This document shows, piece after piece, positions 1,912-22,045 of a stretch of 29,965 nt of DNA. Numbering within the stretch: the first letter of the stretch is position 1; each line of letters opens with the position of its first letter. The DNA is from a virus. The notes below the pieces were generated by a model. That model saw nothing but the letters and a program-made list of their open reading frames with translations, did not search any database and was not told the origin of the DNA. The position numbers were made by a program, and so were the translations under genes. Location: positions 1-29,965 of the IMG/VR virus record IMGVR_UViG_3300008740_000035. One strand, given 5' to 3'.

Positions 1912-4159
1912 AGACGTTCCTATTAATCTTGAGGAGGAAAGGTCGCCGTGGCTTAAATTGGCAAAGGATGCATATGAGTCCTCTACCTCGTATCTAGATG
2001 CCAATTACCGTCGGCAGTGGGATCGAAACATATCTCTGTTTCAGTCTAAACATCCTACTGGCTCCAAATACCATACCTCCCAATACCAGCACAGGTCACG
2101 TCTGTTTAGGCCGAAAACGCGATCCTCAATACGAACTAACGAAGCCGCGGTTACCGCGGCTTTTTTCGCAACTGAAGACGTTGTTTCTGTTTATCCACAG
2201 AACGACTCTGATCAAGAACAGAGGGCTTCTGCAACAATTCTGAAGCATCTGCTTCAGTACCGTTTGACCAAAACAATACCTTGGTTCCAAACCCTAGTTG
2301 CGGCTTATCAAGAGGCGCTTATCTTTGGCTCTGTTGTGTCTCATCAGTACTGGGAATACAAAGAGGAGAAGGTCAAAACCAAGAACCCAGTGATGGATAT
2401 TAACGGGAATCCGGTTCTTGATGAGGAAGGGAATGAGGTCGTCGATGTAATTGAGGAGAAGAGAGTCGTAAAAGACTGCCCATATGTTCGCCTAATCGCC
2501 GCGGAAAACTTTCGCATCGATCCCGCGGCGGACTGGTTAGACCCAATTGGAACATCGCCATATGTTGTTGAAATCATTCCAATGTATCTCCAAGATGTTT
2601 TGGAAAAGATGGATTCCATCGACCCAAAAACGGGGGAGCCAAAATGGAAGCGCCTAAAAATTGGCGAACTTCTGGAGTCAACAAAACAGCCGGAGTTTGA
2701 CTCCACTCGACAGACGAGGCAGGGCAAGAGGCAAGACCCGCTAGTAGATCGACAGGAGAATATCTCCGAGTACCAGACGGTATTTATTCATAAGAATATC
2801 GTCCGAAAAAACGGTAAAGACTGGATGTTCTATACGGCGGGGACTCAGCATATGCTGACCGATCCAAAGCCGTTGCGAGATGCGTATCCGCATCTTAGAG
2901 AGGGGGAGCGTCCATACGTTATGGGCGGAAGTGTTATCGAGGCGCACAGAACATACCCCACTTCCCTAGTGGAACTTACCCAAGACCTCCAGACCGCCGC
3001 TAACGACATTGCGAACCAGCGTTCTGACAATGTTCAACTGGTACTCAATAAGAGATATCACATTCGGCGCAGTTCCAACATTGATATTCATGCGTTGAAG
3101 CGGAGCGTTCCGGGCGGATCGGTAATGATGGATGACCCCATCAGCGACGTTCAAATAGTGAACACACCAGATGTTACGGCGTCGAGTTATGAAGAGCAGG
3201 ATCGATTAAATGTCGATTTTGACGATATCGCTGGGAACTTTTCTCAAGGAACAATTCAGACCAACAGAATGATGAATGAAACTGTTGGCGGAATGGAGAT
3301 GCTGAGTTCAAACGCCAACTCCATGATCGAGTACATGATCAGAACCTTTGCAGAGACATGGATGGAGCCAGTCATCATGCAACTGGTTCGTCTTGAGCAG
3401 TATTACGAGACTGATGAAGTTGTTCTACAGGTTGCGACCAACCGCGCAGAGGAAGAAAACAAGGAAGAACCCGGATTCTACCAGCGATTCTCTGGCGCAG
3501 AGATGGATAGCCTTTTAAGGCATGAGATGACTGTCGGGGTTAACGTCGGAACTGGTGCAACTGATCCAGTTAAAAAGATTGAAAGACTGCTTCTCGGCAT
3601 CAGGACAATGGGCGAAATTAACCCAGACCTGATCAACTTCCTTAATCAGAGCGAGATAACCAAGGAAGTCTTTGGCGCCCTTGGCTACAAGGATGGTAAG
3701 CGATTCGTTGCTGAAGAAGAGCAGACACGCATTGACATGATTTCCGGCCAGATTGAAGAACTCACCGGAGCAGTTCAGCAACTAATGAATCAGGGCGCGG
3801 CGAAGCAGATCGATGCCGAAGCCAGAATCCTATCCGCACAGATCAAAGGTCAGTCCGATATTCAGGCCGCGAAAGAGAAAGCAATGGGCGACATTATGTC
3901 TACCCAGATTGCTACCGATGGAAGGGAGCGCTCAGATGTTCTGAGACAGCAGATCGGGATAATCGAAGCGCGGATCAAGGCTGAAAAGAACGATATCGCA
4001 AGAGGGGAGTTAATCCTCCAAAAAGAAGCCCTCGTTCATAAGATGTTGCTTGAGGAAGACGCCGCTATAGGCGTCTCCCCGGGTAACGAAGACGGGAAGC
4101 AAATGTCTGATGTCCTGATGAATGATCAATACGGGAAGGTTCCCGGCGCAGAGGGTTAA
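1904..4159 (+). CDS. Portal protein (head-to-tail connector, P22-size)
   Basis: The dodecameric ring at the capsid vertex through which DNA enters and leaves. At 751 residues it is close to the long P22-type portals. It opens with an acidic helix, then an early RPKTRSSIRTNEAAVTAAFF stretch, a stem/wing region, and a long C-terminal helical segment (roughly residues 610-715) rich in Ala, Glu, Lys and Gln, like the barrel of P22 portal. I place the start at ATG 1904 because AGGTGAGG (1887-1894) lies 9 bases upstream; an ATG at 1880 would add eight residues without a good site. The start overlaps the previous gene and the stop overlaps the next (TAATG). A terminator-like hairpin lies inside the gene at 2142-2166. 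Confidence 0.87.
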   Translation: MDKDVPINLEEERSPWLKLAKDAYESSTSYLDANYRRQWDRNISLFQSKHPTGSKYHTSQYQHRSRLFRPKTRSSIRTNEAAVTAAFFATEDVVSVYPQNDSDQEQRASATILKHLLQYRLTKTIPWFQTLVAAYQEALIFGSVVSHQYWEYKEEKVKTKNPVMDINGNPVLDEEGNEVVDVIEEKRVVKDCPYVRLIAAENFRIDPAADWLDPIGTSPYVVEIIPMYLQDVLEKMDSIDPKTGEPKWKRLKIGELLESTKQPEFDSTRQTRQGKRQDPLVDRQENISEYQTVFIHKNIVRKNGKDWMFYTAGTQHMLTDPKPLRDAYPHLREGERPYVMGGSVIEAHRTYPTSLVELTQDLQTAANDIANQRSDNVQLVLNKRYHIRRSSNIDIHALKRSVPGGSVMMDDPISDVQIVNTPDVTASSYEEQDRLNVDFDDIAGNFSQGTIQTNRMMNETVGGMEMLSSNANSMIEYMIRTFAETWMEPVIMQLVRLEQYYETDEVVLQVATNRAEEENKEEPGFYQRFSGAEMDSLLRHEMTVGVNVGTGATDPVKKIERLLLGIRTMGEINPDLINFLNQSEITKEVFGALGYKDGKRFVAEEEQTRIDMISGQIEELTGAVQQLMNQGAAKQIDAEARILSAQIKGQSDIQAAKEKAMGDIMSTQIATDGRERSDVLRQQIGIIEARIKAEKNDIARGELILQKEALVHKMLLEEDAAIGVSPGNEDGKQMSDVLMNDQYGKVPGAEG
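2142..2166 (+). other. Terminator-like hairpin inside the portal gene
   Basis: A perfect 9-bp stem, AAGCCGCGG pairing with CCGCGGCTT across a three-base TTA loop, runs straight into TTTTTT (2161-2166). That is the canonical form of an intrinsic terminator, yet it lies within the portal reading frame, where it encodes EAAVTAAFF. It could attenuate or pause late transcription, or be a chance result of codon choice. No function is shown. Confidence 0.5.
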
Positions 4160-6944: not shown

Positions 6945-8375
6945 ATGATTAGAACTAGTTTTAAGTGGGAAAACGAGGAATATCTTGACTCCAAGTATGG
7001 TCATAAATGCCTTCATGGCGGCGGGTCTTCAGATGCAGATCAGGATGGAGCCGAAAACGGGGGTGGAAACCAAGGCGGTGGAAATCCCGCAGATGCCAAC
7101 AACCCCGGAGTAAGTACTGGTCAAGTAGGCTCCAGTGGGGCAACAGCAGATCAGGGAGGATTTGGCGCAAGCACCGATCATGGTGATTCCGCAGTAGCAG
7201 ATGCTAACCGGGATGCTATGCGCGGATGGGATTCATCCCCCGGAAGAAGTGTAGGCTTTGGCTCTCCAACTGGCTCACATCCAGATGAAGGCCAACCGGG
7301 TTTTGGTGTTTCTCAAAGTTTCGATGATGTCGATTACGGGTACTACGATGGGTATGCTACAGAAGTAATAGGTATGAAAGAACCGGGCGCAACGCTGTCT
7401 ACGCAACAAATGAACCACAGCGTTTTCGATCCGGGCATTTCTTTGTCTACTCAGCAAATGGATACGAGGACTTTCAGCCATAACTGGGACAACCCTAACA
7501 CCCAGTTTAGCCCGATGGAATCCACGCCTATCAATGCTTGGGATAACCCTAATACTCAATTCAGTCCGATGGAGTTTGGGCCTCAACATCAAATGGCCCT
7601 TTCAACACAACAGTTAGGGCAAAACGTCACGGTTGGCTATGGGCCTCAAAGACAGGCGCAAATGGATGACATTGACGCCATGATGGAGCAACAAGGTGTG
7701 ACAACGCAGGGTTATGTAGACCCAGAGACAACAACCCTAGAAGCGATTGCACAACAGCAACACGAACAGAGGCAGAAGGAGTTGGGAACGCCCGTAGAAG
7801 AAGTCGAAACAAACCCAAATCTTATCAGTCGATTTGATCAAAGACAGTTCTACTCCGCCCTTGACGATGAAGATGCAACCGAAGAGGCAAAAGCACTAGA
7901 AATTGAAGGGTTCCTTGATCATATCAACCGGAAAAACTATACCGATACCGGACTACTTTCTAAGTTAGGGATTCGGAGTCCACAACTTAATCAAAGACAG
8001 CAGATTGAACAGGTTAAGAACTTTTTAGGAAAGCATCAGAAGGAAATTGATGCGCTAAACAAAGCCTACTCAAAGCAGATTAATGAGAACCCGGGATTTA
8101 GAAATCTTTTACCGGGCTATAAAGCCATAACCGGCTTAATGGGCCTAATCGGGCTTGAGCCTCAACACGTTCATCCATCAGTTCAGGCGTTATACGACAA
8201 GATGGTCGAACTTGGTCTAATGGAAAAAGAAGCCCCTGAAATGACCGAGGCTAAAAAGGCTCAAGTTTGCAACGCAACTACTGGTTATCGATGGGATACG
8301 GAGTCACGGGCCTGCGTTCCTATTAATCAAGACTCTGACGGCTCTTATAACCCGTATCTTGGTATTCTTGGTTGA
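6945..8375 (+). CDS. Large disordered, repeat-bearing putative virion protein (476 aa)
   Basis: Residues 25-150 are very rich in Gly, Asn, Asp, Gln and Ser and look disordered. Residues about 150-215 hold short repeats: STQQM or STQQL three times and DNPNTQFSPME twice. Residues 270-440 look helical. The C-terminus has a small two-cysteine motif, CNATTGYRWD...C, of a kind I have seen at the ends of marine phage structural proteins. The start has a modest GGA site at 6936-6938. The stop overlaps the TTG start of the glycosyltransferase, which makes this protein a possible substrate of that enzyme. The virion role is inferred from location only. Confidence 0.6.
   Translation: MIRTSFKWENEEYLDSKYGHKCLHGGGSSDADQDGAENGGGNQGGGNPADANNPGVSTGQVGSSGATADQGGFGASTDHGDSAVADANRDAMRGWDSSPGRSVGFGSPTGSHPDEGQPGFGVSQSFDDVDYGYYDGYATEVIGMKEPGATLSTQQMNHSVFDPGISLSTQQMDTRTFSHNWDNPNTQFSPMESTPINAWDNPNTQFSPMEFGPQHQMALSTQQLGQNVTVGYGPQRQAQMDDIDAMMEQQGVTTQGYVDPETTTLEAIAQQQHEQRQKELGTPVEEVETNPNLISRFDQRQFYSALDDEDATEEAKALEIEGFLDHINRKNYTDTGLLSKLGIRSPQLNQRQQIEQVKNFLGKHQKEIDALNKAYSKQINENPGFRNLLPGYKAITGLMGLIGLEPQHVHPSVQALYDKMVELGLMEKEAPEMTEAKKAQVCNATTGYRWDTESRACVPINQDSDGSYNPYLGILG
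7485..7574 (+). repeat. Two 36-bp direct repeats in the disordered protein gene
   Basis: Copies at 7485-7520 and 7539-7574 both encode WDNPNTQFSPME. They differ mainly at third codon positions, so the repeat is kept at protein level and is not a fresh duplication. Confidence 0.75.
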
Positions 8376-9445
8376 AAATAACCCATATCCCCAAAAAGAA
8401 ATGGCAAGAACTTAGCAACGAAGAACTGGGCGGTAAAAGGAAGGATACCGTTTGCCTTATCAGGTACGGAGGGTTTGGGGATTTAATTCAAGCCAGTTCG
8501 ATTTTCCCACTTATAAAAGAGAAAGGAAAAAAGGTCTGCGTCAACGTAACTGAAAATGGTTACGACATTTTAAAAAATGACCCGAATGTTGATGAACTCC
8601 TTATACAAACAACGGATCAAATCCCGAACGAAGAACTAGAGTCTTACTGGAAACGCCTTCGCAGGATTTTCCCAAGTGTAATCAACCTCAGTTGCATTGT
8701 TGAGCAGGGGTTACTGCTTCTGCCAAACAGTCCGATTTATAACGCAGATAAATCTGAGCGGCATAAGAAATTAAATAAGAATTACTCTGAAGCGCTTCAC
8801 AATAAGGCGCGAGTTCCACACCTGTTCAACACGAAGTTTTATCCAAGCGCCTCGGAAAAGAAATGGGTCGCAGAACAGCGCAGGAATATGCGGCTCGGCT
8901 CCCAGCATTACGTCATCGTTGTTGCTCTCTCTGGTTCATCGGTACACAAGGCGTATCCATACATGGATTCCGTGATTGCTTATTACATGACGGAAGAGCC
9001 AACAGCGAGATTTGTGTTAGTGGGTGAAGAACTCTGCAAAATGCTTGAGGTTGGATGGGAAAAAGAATCCAGAGTGTTCTGCAAAAGCGGTGATTGGTCT
9101 ATCAGGGAGTCATTATCATTTGCCCAGACCGCTGATCTTGTGCTTGGCCCGGAAACAGGCGTCTTGAATGCAGTCAGTTCAGAAGATGTAGCCAAGGTCG
9201 TCATGTTGAGCCATTCCTCCGAAGAGAACTTAACAAAGCATTGGGTCAACACTACCGCCGTTAAATCAGACGCTGATTGCTACCCATGCCACAAGATGCA
9301 TTACGGTTTTGCAACCTGTAATAGGCATGAAGAAACAGGCGGCGCAATGTGTGCCGCACGGTTAGACCCAAAAAATGTGGTTGACGCTATCGACTACCAC
9401 TGGAATTTGAAGAATGACTTATCTAGAACTCTGTCAAACAGTTAG
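8372..9445 (+). CDS. GT9-like (heptosyltransferase-type) glycosyltransferase
   Basis: Likely transfers a sugar from a nucleotide donor. The N-terminal half carries LIRYGGFGDLIQASSIFPLI (from about residue 29), close to the glycine-rich start of GT9 heptosyltransferases. The C-terminal half has the matching donor-side pattern DLVLGPETGVLNAVSS (about 255-270), then a Cys-rich tail including CYPCHK. The length of 357 residues is normal for the family. The only usable start is TTG 8372, which overlaps the previous stop by 4 bases, with no clear ribosome site. A stop codon at 8348-8350 excludes a longer form. The 3' end overlaps the adaptor gene by 32 bases. The target could be a virion protein or host surface glycan; the location in the late operon favours the virion. 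Confidence 0.75.
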   Translation: MKITHIPKKKWQELSNEELGGKRKDTVCLIRYGGFGDLIQASSIFPLIKEKGKKVCVNVTENGYDILKNDPNVDELLIQTTDQIPNEELESYWKRLRRIFPSVINLSCIVEQGLLLLPNSPIYNADKSERHKKLNKNYSEALHNKARVPHLFNTKFYPSASEKKWVAEQRRNMRLGSQHYVIVVALSGSSVHKAYPYMDSVIAYYMTEEPTARFVLVGEELCKMLEVGWEKESRVFCKSGDWSIRESLSFAQTADLVLGPETGVLNAVSSEDVAKVVMLSHSSEENLTKHWVNTTAVKSDADCYPCHKMHYGFATCNRHEETGGAMCAARLDPKNVVDAIDYHWNLKNDLSRTLSNS

Positions 9446-12214: not shown

Positions 12215-13938
12215 TGGCGAACGATTATTACACTAGGCAAGGCTCCTATACGAAAGGAACACTCGCAAGAGGCGACGTTGTTAAGTCGGATTACGATGCT
12301 TTGGTTACCGCATGGGACTTGGGCGAAACGAACATCAAACGTGCGCTCAAACTTCCCGAAGAAGGCTCACCCCAGACAGACTGGAAGATTACCGAGAACG
12401 CATCGAACAGGGCAGGAAAGGCCATTGGGTTCGATTCTTCTGGTGACTTGGAACTCCAGACCGGGGTAGGTAACTGGGAAGGTACTTGGGCCACAGCGAC
12501 TGCCTACTCCCTGCGCGATGTCGTTGTAGACGGCGCGGCAGGAGCAAGTACTGACAACCTCTATATATGTATCGTTGCCCACACCTCTGGCACATGGGCT
12601 ACCGACCTGTCTGCCGCAAAATGGGAGTTAATGGTCAACGTCAGCGAAGCCCGTGACTGGGCGCGTAAGACTGACGGCATAGTCGATTCGACGGACTATA
12701 GCAGTAAAGCCTATGCAATCGGTGGCACTGGGGTAACGACAAGTTCGGGTAAAGGCGCGGCAAAGGAGTGGGCTACTACGACTGGTGGCTACGTTGATAC
12801 GGCAGAGTACTCCGCAAAAGAATATGCAATCGGTACAACCGTAGCCGCAGGGTCAGCCAAAACCCACGCCGATGCCTCCTCGACATCAGCCTCGGCCAGT
12901 GCGACAAGCGCGACTGCCTCGGCAACGAGCGCAACTGCGAGTGCGACATCAGCCACCGCAAGTGCCGCCAGTGCTACTGCGGCATCGTCCAGTCAAACCG
13001 CCGCCGCGAGTTCGGCAACAGCCGCCGCCGCAAGTTACGACGCTTTCGATGATCGCTATTTAGGCAGTAAGAGTTCCGATCCATCGGTTGACAATGACGG
13101 AAATACTTTACTAGACGGCGCTCTATATTTTAATACGACCAACAATGTAATGATGGTCTATGACTTGGGTACGACCACTTGGCTGAGAACCACGCCGACT
13201 ACCACTGACCAAGGTCATATAAATACCGTTAGCGGCATTGCGGCTAATGTAACCACAGTTGCTGGCCTTTCTAGTGAGGTGACAGCGGTTGCTGGCAAAT
13301 CAACTGAGATTGGATTGCTAGGTGTTCCAGCAGTAATTACCGACATGGGGATACTTGGCACTGCTGACGTAGTTGCCGATATGAACACGCTCGGAACCGC
13401 TGACGTAGTTGCCGATATGAACACGTTAGGAACGGCTGACGTGGTTGCTGATATGAATGTTCTGGCTACGGCAGATGTCGTAACTGACATGAATACTTTG
13501 GGAACTGCTGACGTAGTTGCTGACATGAATACTCTCGGCACTGCTGACGTAGTTGCCGACATGAATACTCTCGGCACATCTACTAATGTGACCAATATGA
13601 GTACCGTGGCGGCAAGTATCGCCGATGTAAACAGGTACGCAAACGAGTATACGATATCGTCTTCCGCACCCGGCTCCCCCTCTGCTGGTGACCTGTGGTA
13701 CGACAGCACGAGTTCGGTACTTAAATACTATAACGGCTCAGTGTGGGCGGCTCTCTCTGGAGACACCGACGTACTGGTTGGGAACTCCGCATCAGACACT
13801 ACTCCCGGCTACTTGTCAGCAAAGGTGGCGGCGGGTAACAACGTAACTCTTACCACGCTTAACTCAGGCGGGAATGAGCAACTTCAAATCACGGCATCGG
13901 ATAACAGTGCGGCTATGGCACTCGCATTGGGCGGATAA
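12214..13938 (+). CDS. Long repeat-rich tail fibre protein (574 aa)
   Basis: Probably the fibre attached to the nozzle. Residues 1-70 are ordered (MANDYYTRQGSYTKGTLARG) and may dock to the tail. Two copies of an EWA..T.G.VD...YSAK.YA motif follow (about 146-205). Then come an Ala/Ser/Thr heptad-like stretch (220-274), a short FDDRYLG segment, eight 12-residue TADVVADMNTLG-type repeats (371-466) and a C-terminal beta-rich end with SAGDLWYDSTSSVLKYYNG. Such repeats usually build long trimeric shafts. It is coupled to the nozzle by TAATG. A receptor-binding head is not obvious, which fits the presence of many short fibre genes downstream. Confidence 0.82.
   Translation: MANDYYTRQGSYTKGTLARGDVVKSDYDALVTAWDLGETNIKRALKLPEEGSPQTDWKITENASNRAGKAIGFDSSGDLELQTGVGNWEGTWATATAYSLRDVVVDGAAGASTDNLYICIVAHTSGTWATDLSAAKWELMVNVSEARDWARKTDGIVDSTDYSSKAYAIGGTGVTTSSGKGAAKEWATTTGGYVDTAEYSAKEYAIGTTVAAGSAKTHADASSTSASASATSATASATSATASATSATASAASATAASSSQTAAASSATAAAASYDAFDDRYLGSKSSDPSVDNDGNTLLDGALYFNTTNNVMMVYDLGTTTWLRTTPTTTDQGHINTVSGIAANVTTVAGLSSEVTAVAGKSTEIGLLGVPAVITDMGILGTADVVADMNTLGTADVVADMNTLGTADVVADMNVLATADVVTDMNTLGTADVVADMNTLGTADVVADMNTLGTSTNVTNMSTVAASIADVNRYANEYTISSSAPGSPSAGDLWYDSTSSVLKYYNGSVWAALSGDTDVLVGNSASDTTPGYLSAKVAAGNNVTLTTLNSGGNEQLQITASDNSAAMALALGG
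12871..13035 (+). repeat. Ala/Ser/Thr low-complexity shaft repeats
   Basis: The DNA encodes tandem SATSATA-type seven-residue units, about 55 residues of almost only Ala, Ser and Thr. Similar stretches form coiled-coil or fibrous shafts in phage side-tail fibres. Confidence 0.75.
13324..13611 (+). repeat. Eight tandem 36-bp units in the fibre gene
   Basis: Eight consecutive 36-base units encode the 12-residue motif TADVVADMNTLG. The first (VPAVITDMGILG) and last (TSTNVTNMSTVA) copies are degenerate and the six inner ones nearly identical, several matching strongly at DNA level. That suggests recent expansion or homogenisation and makes copy-number change likely. Confidence 0.9.
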
Positions 13939-13976: not shown

Positions 13977-14300
13977 ATGGCAAACGCATTTAAAAACGCC
14001 GGGGCCGCGATAGCAACATCAAGAACCGATGTCTATACCTGTCCCGCCGCAACGGAAGCAGTAATCCACGCGGTGTACCTGTCCAATGTGGACGGCACAT
14101 CAAGCGTGGACGCAACGATTGAGGTCTACGACAACTCGACCACAACCTACTTCCATGTCGGCAAGACGCTCCCTGTCCCGGCGGATTCAACCTTGGTTCT
14201 TGATAAACCAATCAACCTTGAAGCCTCCGACAAACTGACGATCACGGCATCTGCCGCCTCAGACCTTGAGTGCTTCATAAGCGTTCTGGAGATCACCTAA
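13977..14300 (+). CDS. Small beta-rich virion protein (107 aa)
   Basis: A compact beta-sandwich-looking protein. Alternating strands run through VIHAVYLSNVDG, ATIEVYDNSTTTYFHVGKTL, STLVLDKPINLEASDKLTITA and a final SVLEIT. I associate this pattern with small structural proteins of marine phages, but no specific role is known to me. AGGAG at 13961-13965 sits 11 bases from the ATG, a little far. The 38-base gap before it is one of the few in this region and may mark a new translation entry point for the short-fibre series. The stop overlaps the next ATG. Confidence 0.7.
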   Translation: MANAFKNAGAAIATSRTDVYTCPAATEAVIHAVYLSNVDGTSSVDATIEVYDNSTTTYFHVGKTLPVPADSTLVLDKPINLEASDKLTITASAASDLECFISVLEIT

Positions 14301-15208
14301 TGCCATATATGGGTAACACAACTCGCAAAGCGTCTGACATCAGGCGTTTTGATGTCACTGGCTCGACAAGTGCAACCCACACGCTGACATGGACTGCCCC
14401 CAACGAGCAATCCCTGATTGTCACCATCAACGGCGTCAAGCAACATGAGGACGCCTATAGCGTAAGCGGCACAACCCTGACCCTGACCTCGGCCCTTGTA
14501 TCGGCAGATAAACTTGAAGTCATCGGGATCAATGATGTCGGTACGACGATTACTCCCGCGCAGAACTCTGTCACGGCAGACACGATTGCAGACGGCGTAA
14601 TCACCAACGCCAAGATCGACGCATCAGCGGCAATTGCGACCTCAAAGATCAGCGGCCTTGCCGCATCAGCCACAACTGACACAACTGATGCCTCAAACAT
14701 TGCAAGTGGCACATTGGCTACTGCGCGACTCGGCAGTGGCACAGCATCATCTAGCACTTATCTTGCGGGTGACAATTCTTGGAAGTCTTTGTCAACATGG
14801 GAAAACACTCCTAACTTTTATGTAAAGACAAACGCAGATCAGTCATGGTCATCGAGTTACACAAAGTTTGAATTCAATACTCTTGTTTCAGAGAGCGACA
14901 CAGGAAGTTTTGACACCACCACTAATTACCGCTTCACCGTTCCGTCAGGAAAGGGTGGTACATATTTGTTTGCGCATCAGTTTGGTGTTGCCAGTGGGTA
15001 CAACTGGTATGTCAAGACACTAAAAAACGGAACAGATGAACTTTGGTGGAGGCAAAATTCATTAAACGACGGTGGTGGTAATCGCAATATGACGCACGTT
15101 GTGGTTGCTGAGTTAGCCGCCGGAGATTATGTGGAGTGGCTCAAATATTCTGGTAGTTCTTGGACAAACTTTGGTGCGCAACTTTACGGTGTGAGGTTAC
15201 AGGCATGA
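14300..15208 (+). CDS. Short tail fibre, C1q-like head (302 aa)
   Basis: N-terminal domain (residues 1-90: MPYMGNTTRK, LTWTAPNEQSLIVTINGVKQ, YSVSGTTLTLTSAL) is the same module as in the gene at 17488. A repetitive linker follows (ITNAKIDASAAIATSKISG; STYLAGDNSW), then a C-terminal domain (about 170-302) with NYRFTVPSGKGGTYLFAHQF and ELAAGDYVEWL. That pattern matches C1q/TNF-like jelly-roll heads, which form trimers and bind receptors. ATG 14300 is chosen because it overlaps the previous stop (TAATG); an upstream in-frame start at 14270 would extend into that gene. The next small gene overlaps by ATGA. Confidence 0.78.
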   Translation: MPYMGNTTRKASDIRRFDVTGSTSATHTLTWTAPNEQSLIVTINGVKQHEDAYSVSGTTLTLTSALVSADKLEVIGINDVGTTITPAQNSVTADTIADGVITNAKIDASAAIATSKISGLAASATTDTTDASNIASGTLATARLGSGTASSSTYLAGDNSWKSLSTWENTPNFYVKTNADQSWSSSYTKFEFNTLVSESDTGSFDTTTNYRFTVPSGKGGTYLFAHQFGVASGYNWYVKTLKNGTDELWWRQNSLNDGGGNRNMTHVVVAELAAGDYVEWLKYSGSSWTNFGAQLYGVRLQA

Positions 15209-15528: not shown

Positions 15529-16582
15529 AACAACCATACGCTCAGAGGACATAACAGCCGGTCAGGTCAAGAGTGCTGACCTTGCCAGTGATGCTGTAGA
15601 TACTTCAGGACTTGAAGATGACATAGCCATCCTTGGCTTCAAGGTTGCCTCTAATGGTTCGCTAAGCAAATACGATCTTGTAGACCAAACGATTGATGAC
15701 TTCCAAGATGCAGCCGGAATTGATACCGGTGGGTCAACTAATGAAATAAGAAATGCTTCCAATTATTATTCTGGAAAACAGGATGCCGAATGGGTGACTG
15801 GGGATAGGACAAGTTCTGTAACTGTAACCAGTGATATGTCTTACTTAGGTTCTCCCGATGGATCGCTCCCAATTAGCACTCTAGTCAATGGTTCTGAAGC
15901 ATATAGCGATGCCGGTGGAGGATGGTTTACTGCGGGGCAAAATGGTTATATCAGATTCGATCACGGATCAGGGAATTCTGAGGTCTACACTAATTCAAGG
16001 TGGGTTTATCAATCGTCTTCCGCAGATGAAGGAACCTACAAATGGCAGGGTAGCAATGATGCGGCTTCTTGGACGGACATAGGAGGCAATTTCACCTTAA
16101 CCGCTAGTGGGGGTGGCCCGAACACCGATACCCACGCCACTATGACATCAAACACGACGTTTTACAGGTATTACCAGTGTATATACGTTAGCGGAAATAA
16201 TACCAATGGCTCTGGCCGAAGAATGGAGATGCAGTTTTACAGAGCGGACTTGGATAACAACATGACTCTAGTATCCAACTCAACAACCGCAGAAGCCACG
16301 CCGACTAAAGGCGACATCGTTATGACCTACACAAATGGGTCAGGAACAGCGACGGTAAACACTGACATCAAGGCTTATGTGTCAAGAGATAACGGCACGA
16401 CATACACCCAAGCCACTCTCTCATCTGAAGGAACCACTGGCGGTCACACCATTCTCACCGCCCACAACGTCGATATTTCATCGCAACCATCAGGAACATC
16501 AATGCGATACAAAATTGAAACGCTGAATCAATCAGCAAGCAAAGAGACACGCATCCAAGCCGTGTCCTTGGGGTGGGCGTAA
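15521..16582 (+). CDS. Tail fibre with galactose-binding-like domain (353 aa)
   Basis: The N-terminus is a short tag (MTRTTIRSEDITAGQ, residues 1-30) of a type seen in fibre proteins. Residues about 85-235 follow the F5/8 type C (discoidin) pattern: a loop ISTLVNGSEAYSD, GYIRFDHGSG, then YKWQGSNDAASWTDIG and a closing RMEMQFYRA strand. That fold typically binds sugars. The C-terminus (240-353) is a second beta domain ending RIQAVSLGWA. The start overlaps the upstream small gene by 8 bases and the stop overlaps the next ATG. It is the only fibre in the array with this head, so it may target a different glycan. Confidence 0.72.
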   Translation: MTRTTIRSEDITAGQVKSADLASDAVDTSGLEDDIAILGFKVASNGSLSKYDLVDQTIDDFQDAAGIDTGGSTNEIRNASNYYSGKQDAEWVTGDRTSSVTVTSDMSYLGSPDGSLPISTLVNGSEAYSDAGGGWFTAGQNGYIRFDHGSGNSEVYTNSRWVYQSSSADEGTYKWQGSNDAASWTDIGGNFTLTASGGGPNTDTHATMTSNTTFYRYYQCIYVSGNNTNGSGRRMEMQFYRADLDNNMTLVSNSTTAEATPTKGDIVMTYTNGSGTATVNTDIKAYVSRDNGTTYTQATLSSEGTTGGHTILTAHNVDISSQPSGTSMRYKIETLNQSASKETRIQAVSLGWA

Positions 16583-17229
16583 TGGCTTTAACTAAAGTAA
16601 CAAGCGGGGTACGAACACTAGGCACTGGTGAGGTAACAACTACCAATATCCTTGATGGAACCATTGCCAATGTAGACGTTGATGCTAGTGCAGATATTGC
16701 ACTGAGCAAACTGGCTACTACAGGAACCGCAAGCGGAAGCACTTTCTTGCGGGGAGATGGGGCGTGGGCGGCGGCAGGGGGTGATAACAGCCCTGCTTAT
16801 GAGGCGGCGAGACAAACAGACCAATCAATCAGTGATGATGTTATGACCAAAGTGGACGTGAATGTCGAGATTTTTGATACCGATTCCGCTTACGACCCAA
16901 CGACTAACTATCGCTTTACGGTTCCATCTGGAGAGGGCGGTAAGTATTTTGTCTATGCCAACATCTTTTTTCATTCAAGTCACAGTTCATCAGACATTGT
17001 TAACCTTGAGATGAATGTAAAGAAAAATGGATCAACAGCCTTCGTTTCCGAGTTTAAACCAAATAGCAGTTACGGTGGACAGACCATAACGGTGGGTGCG
17101 TCAGCCATTTTGATTTTATCCGCCGCTGATTATCTGGAGTTATACGGCCTCTTCAATAATGTGCAAGGAAGTACTTACACTAATATTAAGCAAGCGACTA
17201 TAGGCGCATACAAGTTGATAGGGATTTAG
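16582..17229 (+). CDS. Short tail fibre, C1q-like head (215 aa)
   Basis: N-terminal tag MALTKVTSGVRTLGTG, repeated IANVDVDASADIALSKL, then the linker GSTFLRGDGAW shared with two other fibres. The C-terminal domain (about 85-215) has YDPTTNYRFTVPSGEGGKYF and ends GAYKLIGI, a C1q-like pattern. It is a clear paralogue of the gene at 18018: the FTVPSGEGGKYF and GAYKLIG blocks match at DNA level (16922-16957 and 17203-17247). Start at ATG 16582, overlapping the preceding stop (TAATG). One base separates it from its small partner gene. Confidence 0.76.
   Translation: MALTKVTSGVRTLGTGEVTTTNILDGTIANVDVDASADIALSKLATTGTASGSTFLRGDGAWAAAGGDNSPAYEAARQTDQSISDDVMTKVDVNVEIFDTDSAYDPTTNYRFTVPSGEGGKYFVYANIFFHSSHSSSDIVNLEMNVKKNGSTAFVSEFKPNSSYGGQTITVGASAILILSAADYLELYGLFNNVQGSTYTNIKQATIGAYKLIGI
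16922..16957 (+). repeat. Fibre-head DNA block, copy 1
   Basis: A 36-base segment matching 18286-18321 with only two mismatches. It encodes the core strand of the C1q-like head. The surrounding head sequence has diverged much more, so this is an island of conservation. Confidence 0.8.
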
Positions 17230-17247
17230 CATGATTACTTCAAAAGG
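17203..17247 (+). repeat. Fibre/partner junction block, copy 1
   Basis: A 45-base segment matching 18573-18617 with two mismatches. It spans the last codons of the fibre (GAYKLIG), the stop, the ribosome site of the small gene and that gene's first codons. Confidence 0.85.
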
Positions 17248-17491: not shown

Positions 17492-18018
17492 GTTACCTTG
17501 GCAACGAACCGCAATTTACGCAGTACCCATCTAAGTTTTTCAACGGCGATGGTTCTGCCATGACGGTATCTCTCGACTACGCTCCGCCCAATGCGGCGGC
17601 ACTACTGGTCTTCATCGACGGTGTAAGGCAGGATACTTCTGCGTATACGTTGTCAGGCACTTCGATGACGTTCACTGGAACCGTACCCTCTGGCACAAAC
17701 AACGTACAGGTCGTTCACATGGGCCTAGCGATTGATGTCGGAACGCCGGGAGATGCGACTGTTACTGCGGCAAAATTAGGAACAACTGGAACACCTGACG
17801 GCTCAAAGTTCTTGCGAGATGACATGGCTTGGCAGGATGTCCCAGCGGGCGCACCAACAGGCGGAGGTACGGAAAAGATTTTCTTCAATAACGAGAACTC
17901 CGTGGATGTGGATTACACCATCCCTGCGGATACGAATTCCGTCAGCGCAGGGCCAATCACAATCGCAAGCGGAATCACCGTCACGGTTGGCGCTACAAGT
18001 AACTGGGTGATCGTCTAA
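17488..18018 (+). CDS. Short tail fibre protein (176 aa)
   Basis: N-terminal module (MSYLGNEPQFTQYPSKFFNG, then ALLVFIDGVRQDTSAYTLSG) is homologous to that of the gene at 14300. The linker SKFLRDDMAWQDV belongs to the shared linker family. The C-terminus is a short beta-rich cap (YTIPADTNSVSAGPITIASG ... WVIV), a tail-end I associate with many marine phage fibres. It has no large head domain, so it may serve as a spacer or base segment for other fibres. It overlaps its neighbours by ATGA upstream and TAATG downstream. Confidence 0.74.
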   Translation: MSYLGNEPQFTQYPSKFFNGDGSAMTVSLDYAPPNAAALLVFIDGVRQDTSAYTLSGTSMTFTGTVPSGTNNVQVVHMGLAIDVGTPGDATVTAAKLGTTGTPDGSKFLRDDMAWQDVPAGAPTGGGTEKIFFNNENSVDVDYTIPADTNSVSAGPITIASGITVTVGATSNWVIV

Positions 18019-18599
18019 TGTCAACACTAGAAACTAATTTAGTTCAGCCCTCAACAGGCACAACTCTTACGCTGGGCGCGTCGGGTGACAGCATCTCAAT
18101 CCCGAGTGGGGCGACGATAGCGAACAGTGGCACTGCCACTGGTTTTGGGACTAACGCTCCCGGCTTTCACGCAAACCGAAGTTCAGGGCAGGGAATGTTA
18201 GATAACACTTCAACCCTGATTGCGTTCAATGCTGAAACATACGACTCTAATTCTGCATACGACACTGGCACAGGAAAGTTTACTGTTCCATCTGGAGAGG
18301 GCGGGAAGTATTTTGTGTATGTTTCATGCGTCATTAGTTCAAATGCAGGAGGCAATGACATAAACACTGCTGATGTCATTTTAAAGAAAAATGGAAGTTA
18401 TGCGGCGGCGGCGAGTTGGGACACAAACGGTTACGGTGACAAATTGATGCTTGAAATCAATGTCACACTTGATTTGTCTGCAAGCGATTATCTTGAAGTT
18501 TACGTCACTATGGATTCGGCTACTGGTTCTAATTGCACTGTTGGTGGTAATTCTTGGGACACATCATATTTCGGCGCATACAAGTTGATAGGGGTATAG
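18018..18599 (+). CDS. Short tail fibre, C1q-like head (193 aa)
   Basis: N-terminal tag STLETNLVQPSTGTTLTLG...IPSGATI, also seen in related form at 18858 and 19708. The head (about 55-193) has GKFTVPSGEGGKYFVYVSCV and ends GAYKLIGV, paralogous to the gene at 16582. So the same head type sits on a different N-terminal tag, which is direct evidence of domain shuffling. It starts at TAATG on the previous stop, and its partner gene begins one base after its stop. Confidence 0.76.
   Translation: MSTLETNLVQPSTGTTLTLGASGDSISIPSGATIANSGTATGFGTNAPGFHANRSSGQGMLDNTSTLIAFNAETYDSNSAYDTGTGKFTVPSGEGGKYFVYVSCVISSNAGGNDINTADVILKKNGSYAAAASWDTNGYGDKLMLEINVTLDLSASDYLEVYVTMDSATGSNCTVGGNSWDTSYFGAYKLIGV
18286..18321 (+). 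repeat. Fibre-head DNA block, copy 2
   Basis: Second copy of the 36-base head block found at 16922-16957, with two mismatches. Confidence 0.8.
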
Positions 18600-20100: not shown

Positions 20101-20676
20101 ATGCCACTAGGCGCTAATAAAGTAGCACTGTACGGAGCAAGTGCGGATACAGGATCAGCCGTGTTGTTGTCCACTGCGACAGCAAGCAGTAGCGCATCTC
20201 TAGAGTTCACGTTGCCTACTGCGTACAAGCAGGTGAAGTTTGGGTTCTACAACATTACACCCGCTACCGATAACTCTAATTTTCAGTTCGATTGCTCGGT
20301 TTCTAGTTCATACGGCACAACGAAAACCACTACCTATTTTGAGTCGTATCACAATGAGGCGGATAGTTCCACAGGATTAACTTACATCACCGCCCAAGAT
20401 TTAGCCCAATCGACAAGCAATCAATCTATTTTTTACAGCATGGGCAATGGAGCAGATGAATGTGGAGCGGGAGAACTGTTTTTATTCAACCCCGCATCTA
20501 CTACATACGTTAAGCATTTTTACGCTAAAGGACAATATTACTATTACTCGGATGCGTCAAACTGTGGATTCATCGGAGGATATTTTAATACCACATCTGC
20601 ACTCGACGGCATCAAGTTTTTAATGTCTAGCGGCAACATCGCTACAGGCACGATAAAAATGTGGGGTATCAAATGA
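20101..20676 (+). CDS. Receptor-binding-like fibre, tandem paralogue A (191 aa)
   Basis: First of three consecutive related genes. It has an extra N-terminal MPLGANKVALYGASADTGS segment, then the shared beta domain: LLSTATASSSASLEFTLP, YKQVKFGFYNITPATD, TKTTTYFESYHNEADSS, DLAQSTSNQ, GAGELFLFNPASTTYVKHFY, GGYFNTTSALDGIKFLMSSG. The conserved NPASTTYVKHF strand and the Cys before GAGEL recur in the next copy. Probably a jelly-roll tip that forms trimers. It abuts the previous stop with no spacer and overlaps the next start by ATGA. Confidence 0.74.
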   Translation: MPLGANKVALYGASADTGSAVLLSTATASSSASLEFTLPTAYKQVKFGFYNITPATDNSNFQFDCSVSSSYGTTKTTTYFESYHNEADSSTGLTYITAQDLAQSTSNQSIFYSMGNGADECGAGELFLFNPASTTYVKHFYAKGQYYYYSDASNCGFIGGYFNTTSALDGIKFLMSSGNIATGTIKMWGIK

Positions 20677-21209
20677 GCGACTGGAAACTACTCAACACCT
20701 CCACAGCATCTGGCGCAAGCAGTGTCGAGTTCACTGATCTGACTGGTTACAAGATATTTAAGTTTGTTTTTGTTGATGTGAATCCTGCGACGGATACAGT
20801 TTTGTTTGAATTTAACGCAAGCACTGATGGCGGTTCAAATTACAACGTAACCAAAACTACAACTTTCTTTTATTCGTACCATTGGGAAAATGATGCTCAT
20901 TCAGGTCTTGGATACATTACTGGAAGTGATATTGCTCAAGGAACTGGGTATCAAACTTTAATGCGGGATGTTGCAAACGATGCAGATGCTTGTGGAACTG
21001 GGGAACTTTATCTGTTTAACCCAGCCTCTACTACCTACGTTAAGCACTTTTATTCAAGGACAGCAACGTATGAAACCAGAGACACGATGGAGGATAGTTA
21101 TATAGCCGGATATTTAAATACCACTTCTGCTGTAAATGCGGCGGCCTTTAAAATGTCTAGCGGAAACTTTGACGGCGTAATAAAACAATACGGTCTGGTG
21201 GCATCATGA
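20673..21209 (+). CDS. Receptor-binding-like fibre, tandem paralogue B (178 aa)
   Basis: Second of the three paralogues, closest to A: TKTTTFFYSYHWENDAHSG, DIAQGTGYQ, DACGTGELYLFNPASTTYVK and GYLNTTSAVNAAAFKMSSGN align with A. It begins directly with SDWKLLNTSTASGASSVEFT and lacks A's N-terminal extension. ATG 20673 is chosen because it overlaps the stop of A by ATGA; the in-frame GTG at 20661 has no advantage. The exposed loops (for example RTATYETRDTMEDS) differ from A, as expected for tips binding different receptors. Confidence 0.74.
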   Translation: MSDWKLLNTSTASGASSVEFTDLTGYKIFKFVFVDVNPATDTVLFEFNASTDGGSNYNVTKTTTFFYSYHWENDAHSGLGYITGSDIAQGTGYQTLMRDVANDADACGTGELYLFNPASTTYVKHFYSRTATYETRDTMEDSYIAGYLNTTSAVNAAAFKMSSGNFDGVIKQYGLVAS

Positions 21210-21751
21210 GCGGAAAACTAACACTCATTTCATCAGCCACGGCATCAGGCTCGTCAAGCGTGGAGTTCACCAGTGGGATTGATTCGACGTATGACGAGTA
21301 TCAGTTTTGGTTTGTTTCCTGTCACCCCGGTGCAGACGGCAAAGATTTTTTATGTAACTTTAGTACAGACGGTGGATCATCTTACGGACTTACCAAAACA
21401 ACAACGGCATTTGTAGCGGAACATACTGAATCAGGATCGGGTGGTTCTTTGGCTTATTGGGGTGGAGGCGATTTGGCGCAATCAACAAATTCTGTAGCGT
21501 TGTCTAGCGCAACAGGAAGCGATAACGATCAATGTGTATCTGGATGCCTTCATCTTTATTCGCCGTCGTCAACAAGTAAAGTGAAGCATTTTCAATTTAC
21601 CAGTAACAATTACTCCCACTCTGATTATTCAAGAAATATTTTTGGAGCGGGATACATCAATGTGTCAAGTTCAGCGGTTGATGCTGTCAAATTTACTTTT
21701 CAAGAAACAAACATAGATGACGGCAACATATATCTTTTCGGAGTAAGTTAA
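21206..21751 (+). CDS. Receptor-binding-like fibre, tandem paralogue C (181 aa)
   Basis: Third and most diverged paralogue. It keeps the frame KLTLISSATASGSSSVEFTS, YGLTKTTTAFVAEHTES, GDLAQSTNSV, CLHLYSPSSTSKVKHFQF and GAGYINVSSSAVDAVKFTFQ. The Asn-Pro of A and B is Ser-Pro here, and a second Cys is added near the conserved one. It overlaps B by ATGA and is followed without spacer by a chaperone-like gene, so A, B and C plus that gene form one coupled unit. Confidence 0.74.
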   Translation: MSGKLTLISSATASGSSSVEFTSGIDSTYDEYQFWFVSCHPGADGKDFLCNFSTDGGSSYGLTKTTTAFVAEHTESGSGGSLAYWGGGDLAQSTNSVALSSATGSDNDQCVSGCLHLYSPSSTSKVKHFQFTSNNYSHSDYSRNIFGAGYINVSSSAVDAVKFTFQETNIDDGNIYLFGVS

Positions 21752-22045
21752 ATGCACAAAATAGTAAACGGTCAGCGCGTAGAACTTACGGCTGAAGAAA
21801 TATCACAACGCGAAGCGGAAGAAGCGGAATGGAACGCAGGTGCGTTTGATCGTGCAATCGCTGATCTCCGATCCCGCCGGAACCAACTGCTTGAATCAAG
21901 CGACTGGACACAAGTAGCGGATGTTGCGCTCACGGTAGAACAGGACACCGCATGGCGTGATTACCGGAAAGCCTTGCGTGATCTCCCGGCAGGGCTGAGA
22001 ACTGCTGATGATGTGACAGCGGTGGAATACCCTACTGCGCCTTAA
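21752..22045 (+). CDS. Tail assembly chaperone-like protein (97 aa)
   Basis: The C-terminal half, RSRRNQLLESSDWTQVADVA then AWRDYRKALRDLPAG, is the pattern of the phage tail assembly chaperone family that sits next to fibre genes. The N-terminus (HKIVNGQRVELTAEEISQRE) is also typical of it. It probably helps fold or trimerise the fibres before it. It begins right at the previous stop and is the last gene of the fibre array, since the longest gap in this part of the window follows. Confidence 0.8.
   Translation: MHKIVNGQRVELTAEEISQREAEEAEWNAGAFDRAIADLRSRRNQLLESSDWTQVADVALTVEQDTAWRDYRKALRDLPAGLRTADDVTAVEYPTAP

Follow-up and report, generated by a model that had tools for sequence, protein, structure and literature searches.

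Three tandem genes, here called A, B, and C, lie in a 29,965-nucleotide stretch of viral DNA (IMG/VR record IMGVR_UViG_3300008740_000035; hereafter the window) and are followed directly by a gene for a tail-fibre assembly chaperone (Table 1). The source record is a 30-kb virus contig with a GC content of 47-52%, and the capsid protein encoded in the window is 52% identical to the capsid of a Vibrio phage genome group (~52 kb). The start and stop codons of A and B, and likewise of B and C, overlap in an ATGA motif, which suggests that the three genes may be translationally coupled; among relatives, overlapping or abutting starts are the rule between copies.

A preliminary description of this locus had proposed three tandem paralogous receptor-binding proteins with a shared scaffold and differing loops. 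Paralogy was confirmed at 41-52% identity: aligning the three proteins together gave identities to A of 51% for B and 41% for C, and a tblastn search with B recovered A (52%, E 1.1e-48) and C (42%, E 2.0e-31). All three proteins match phrog_14820, a phage family that carries no functional annotation, at 5e-54 to 2e-57 over most of its 206-position profile. No match to a Pfam profile was obtained for A, B, or C up to E 0.1, and a sequence search for solved relatives returned none. The scaffold motifs TKTTT.F, D(L/I)AQ, P.ST..VKHF, and GYxN occur in all three proteins, but VEFT does not extend to A, which reads LEFT; similarly, the conserved Cys is common to A, B, and C of the window but varies across the wider family (B residue 107, entropy 2.1 bits). 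The extra N-terminal segment ascribed to A is real and about 17 residues long. The receptor-binding role is suggested by the genomic context.

Each of the three copies shows a dN/dS of ~0.2-0.3 against its nearest relatives, with synonymous sites near saturation, and values of 0.44-0.47 were found in closer pairs elsewhere. The copies are thus all constrained and none is decaying, which rules out non-functional remnants or pseudogenes.

Two other features of the window were noted. A 574-aa fibre protein contains a 36-bp repeat in seven overlapping register positions (13292-13613), coding for 12-residue repeats of the LGTADVVADMNT type with a weak LED-repeat match. In the virion-structural region, a 357-aa ORF (8372-9445) has a start, VCLIRYGGFGDLIQASSIFPLIK, that resembles heptosyltransferase-type (GT9) glycosyltransferases, and a Pfam search of this ORF at 1e-3 gave no match.

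Table 1. Features of the tip-gene cassette in the window
Feature	Position	Strand	Description	Basis
Gene A	20101..20676	+	191 aa; fibre-tip domain, class P1; 17-aa N-terminal extension MPLGANKVALYGASADTGS	phrog_14820 at 5.3e-54; P1 call by 33 log units
Gene B	20673..21209	+	178 aa counted from ATG; fibre-tip domain, class P2	phrog_14820 at 5.7e-57; P2 by 44 log units; AlphaFold2 pLDDT 95.7
Gene C	21206..21751	+	181 aa; fibre-tip domain, class P3	phrog_14820 at 2.1e-57; P3 by 17.5 log units; AlphaFold2 pLDDT 96.0
Tail-fibre assembly chaperone	21752..22045	+	First base directly after the C stop codon	PF16778 Phage_tail_APC, phrog_4912
ATGA start/stop overlap, A-B	20673..20676	+		Read from sequence
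ATGA start/stop overlap, B-C	21206..21209	+		Read from sequence
B residues 27-34	20751..20774	+	Strand 28-38	Class-coded residues 27, 28, 30, 32, 34
B residues 167-173	21171..21191	+	Within C-terminal strand 166-175	Strongest class code

Copy number and gene neighbors among relatives

Scans of IMG/VR yielded several hundred relatives. Among deduplicated internal arrays with members of at least 150 bits, 137 have three copies and 7 have six. Nine exceptions to multiples of three were listed: five are cut by a contig end (L041, L133, L150, L267, and L276), one has three copies whose frames are broken (L233), and one is a distant relative (L124), leaving L123 (one copy) and L175 (four copies) as genuine high-scoring exceptions. 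Relatives also appeared in four bacterial genome bins (Roseovarius, Pelagibacter twice, and Campylobacteraceae; L282-L285), where the matches are probably phage contigs binned with their hosts.

In 193 of 204 arrays, the next gene downstream encodes a member of the chaperone family, and about half of the remainder stop at a contig edge; therefore, the unit is a four-gene cassette. The cultured pelagiphages HTVC010P, HTVC019P, and HTVC034P each carry three consecutive copies of the same family, in the same order and with the chaperone downstream, all of the tip genes being annotated as hypothetical. They differ from the window in that a 22-aa N-terminal segment precedes the domain in all three copies rather than in A only. 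A single copy, again with the chaperone, is found in Lederberg EXVC029P and in L123, which indicates that the domain can also function without triplication.

In some relatives, the domain forms the C-terminus of a long fibre protein with a base domain, and this position, together with the adjacent fibre-assembly chaperone, marks it as a probable tail-fibre tip. The 325-aa tail fibre of L037, for example, shares the phrog_14820 tip domain with the window genes; in such fibres, one gene joins the tip to an N-terminal base domain (phrog_18673), whereas the window genes are free-standing and occur in threes. These fused tip proteins are presumably homotrimers. Single-copy tips fused to a MAYIGKxPxVGNFQ base (L037 at 2739-3722, L048, L070, L073, and L077) often lie directly upstream of a free triplet and possibly represent either the homotrimeric ancestor form or a partner fibre. 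Among the ORFs of relatives that were examined, no natural fusion of two or three tip domains was found.

Predicted fold and structural comparisons

AlphaFold2 predicts B and C as one kind of all-beta domain, a compact beta-sandwich of 11-12 strands with identical strand order, so no difference in fold between the two copies is predicted; two L086 rows were left out of an alignment used for prediction. Neither model matched a solved structure at E 1e-3. For B, the N-terminal domain of galectin-8 comes closest (E 1.6e-3, query TM 0.45), and C matches galectins at E ~0.04 at best. Since this closest TM falls below the 0.5 usually taken to mean a common fold, a galectin or ConA-like lectin fold is not supported and no named fold is assigned. 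Among predicted viral structures, 112 match the domain at E 1e-3, often inside much longer proteins.

Membership in the C1q/TNF superfamily is likewise unsupported and was rejected: A, B, and C have no Pfam C1q or TNF match, and the sole TNF-family match for C in the fold search, RANKL, is insignificant (E 0.085, TM 0.14). C1q A, B, and C do form a heterotrimer from three paralogous beta-sandwich chains, following the logic proposed here. Proteins with C1q/TNF-type domains do occur in the window, in genes separate from A, B, and C: between 14270 and 18861 there are three further tip-like proteins (14270-15208, 16573-17229, and 18018-18599). A small gene follows each of them, and those at 17231 and 18601 are XkdW-like. 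The units at 16.6-17.5 kb and 18.0-18.9 kb are partial duplicates, ~1370 bp apart, with 77-93% DNA identity in blocks.

Three position classes and the residues that encode them

Across 168 non-redundant triplets, 24 alignment columns separate the three gene positions beyond every value in 200 within-array shuffles, and the summed mutual information with gene position is 14.07 (5.54 +/- 0.17 when shuffled). A held-out classifier recovered the position of 83% of copies (chance 33%) and the full order of 78% of arrays (chance 17%), falling to 44% of copies and 36% of arrays without the 30 best columns. With similarity-split folds and no constraint on the calls, 116 of the 168 triplets contained one of each class, compared to 37.4 +/- 5.5 after shuffling. 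Genes A, B, and C of the window classify as P1, P2, and P3; the training set for these calls probably included a near-identical contig carrying this array.

Where a genome has two separate triplets, each usually reads 1-2-3. The contiguous six-copy arrays of L060, L064, L180, L200, L256, and L274, with all genes on one strand, read 3-2-1-1-2-3, so one member per class is kept in each set despite the reordering. L023, L036, and L097 lack both clear classes and the N-terminal matching described below. In the six-copy array of L097 (1771-6130) and in L101, several chains have long fibre-base-like N-termini, such as SILEAKKIEPATATTVTLG, and no clear-cut class pattern. Because the class signal is local, neither trees built from whole sequences nor identity matrices pick it up; positional monophyly was rejected for such a tree, with 48 label changes (136 when shuffled, 2 in the ideal case).

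The coded residues (B numbering 3-10, 21-34, 111, 113, and 167-173) fall mainly on strands 1, 3, 8, and 12. Residue 171, for instance, is Lys in P1 and P2 and Cys, Leu, or Thr in P3 (MI 0.75, z 72). Couplings of uncoded columns (F31-I170, F33-G110, F31-L112, and D35-T109) indicate that strands 12, 3, and 8 are adjacent within a single sheet, and the pairs W4-L175 and L6-V169 join strand 1 to strand 12. Once 16 coded columns are set aside, copies from the same position resemble each other no more than copies from different positions do (~50-52% each). The most variable residues (44, 46, 65, 67, 69, 71, 78, 80, 95, 97, 130, 132, 134, 138, 140, 142, and 144) sit largely at alternate positions on strands 4, 5, 6, 7, 9, and 10, a pattern that an exposed, diversifying face would show. 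Strand registry and couplings lead us to infer a domain with two faces, a coded sheet and a variable face. Host-recognition regions of marine phages are hypervariable, those of HTVC010P-like phages included (PMC3909814), which fits the proposed tip role.

Covariation between the chains of one array was scored by per-pair shuffle z-scores; these replaced average-product-corrected mutual information, which was swamped by finite-sample noise in the hypervariable columns. Coded columns across P1, P2, and P3 have a mean Z of 4.2-5.4, compared to 0.2-0.3 for entropy-matched uncoded columns, although part of this may be linkage or shared descent, as coded columns are mostly located close to the ends of the genes, where uncoded columns reach a Z of 1.0-1.3 (~0.1 in the middle). 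The coded middle strand has a Z of 1.4-2.0 with the coded ends, compared to 0.0-0.3 with uncoded middle columns. Covariation at the sequence level thus supports contact between subunits but falls short of proof, since the ends of the genes can covary in part through common descent.

Most relatives carry ~22 residues ahead of the domain in all three copies (e.g., NNNSLSAIT, NNNSISAVT, and NNRGVKNAT); in the clade of the window, only A has such an extension. Of 22 genomes with two or more triplets, 19 have segments that are more alike within than between triplets (p 9e-6), and the domain bodies show the opposite tendency. Such matching would fit a common shaft or a matching tag. Since most relatives have the segment in all three copies and the clade of the window in A only, the suggestion that it serves A as an attachment point is plausible.

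A candidate heterotrimeric tail-fibre tip

Taken together, A, B, and C are likely to be the distinct subunits of a single heterotrimeric tail-fibre tip, a reading we favor because it explains the number of copies, their composition, the location of the class code, the matched N-termini, the coupled translation, and the chaperone together. The textbook phage fibre tip consists of three identical chains. Here, the coupled genes would yield A, B, and C at 1:1:1, and the chaperone encoded next to them would help to assemble the tip. The class-specific residues on strands 1, 12, 3, and 8 would form an asymmetric subunit interface, so that a chain of each class (P1, P2, and P3) would be needed, while the variable positions on the other strands would face outward and contact the host surface, leaving each chain free to diversify alone. 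In most relatives, the short matched N-terminal segments would form a common shaft and would also separate different triplets within a genome; A alone has kept such a segment in the window. Of the two options first raised for this locus, heteromeric tips and parallel diversification, both are supported: the first is favored by arrays in threes with one member per class and by a class code confined to one covarying patch, and the second is contained within it, since each domain is otherwise free to diversify.

One argument against a heterotrimer is that three independent homotrimeric tips, specific for different receptors and diverged so as not to mix, would also give class-specific interfaces. 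Insulation against cross-assembly between paralogues predicts class-specific interface residues like those found, the phage fibre tips with solved structures are homotrimeric, and single-copy relatives exist. However, such tips would predict neither the threes and the one-of-each composition of reordered six-copy arrays, nor the matching of N-terminal segments within a set, nor the covariation of coded columns between copies, and we regard them as unlikely. Some other hetero-oligomer, such as a hetero-hexamer, ring, or collar around the tail, is more doubtful still. Its appeal is that A, B, and C lack a base domain and have no close solved structure, but relatives have the domain joined to fibre base domains, a fibre-assembly chaperone comes next, and the hypervariable faces are suited to receptor contact. 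Passive inheritance of an ancestral triplication, with copies under no obligation to interact, is very improbable: all arrays may share one triplicated ancestor, so that the number three alone may be inheritance, but there has been no drift in copy number to two, four, or five across a very large divergence (dS near saturation), the class signal lies in one patch rather than gene-wide, and reordered arrays still hold one of each.

A literature search for heteromeric phage tips found no tailed-phage case, most subscription papers and preprints lying outside its reach. The one published analogue found for a heterotrimeric tip is the tail of the virophage DSLV2 (PMC12724248). According to that report, three consecutive paralogous genes (QIG59353-QIG59355) encode ~19 kDa proteins whose positional classes are conserved across genomes, and a heterotrimer that binds Synechococcus cells is reported from an AlphaFold3 model, co-purification, and native PAGE. 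The window shares with DSLV2 the feature by which we recognize a candidate heterotrimeric viral fibre tip, three consecutive paralogous tail genes with conserved positional classes. The two systems, set side by side here by description, differ in several respects: DSLV2 is a virophage whereas the family in the window belongs to tailed phages; the DSLV2 fold is, by its authors' description, a T4 gp37-tip-like needle with a collar domain whereas a compact sandwich is predicted here; and the accessible part of that report makes no mention of a chaperone cassette or of two-triplet genomes (PMC12724248).

We lean, with somewhat less assurance than for the window itself, toward the broader view that tailed phages, including abundant pelagiphages, have obligate heterotrimeric tips in which an interface code, N-terminal sorting, and independently diversifying receptor faces combine to give three contact surfaces per fibre. 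Phage fibre tips are usually taken to be homotrimers, and host-range models assume one gene per tip. If the three-chain tip is real, host recognition would be combinatorial in some of the most abundant phages of the ocean, and receptor-binding predictions based on single genes would be wrong for these phages. It would also provide phrog_14820, a widespread family so far annotated as hypothetical, with both a function and a rule for assembly. Because single-copy and triplet versions of the domain coexist, the evolution from homomer to heteromer would be directly testable in this family.
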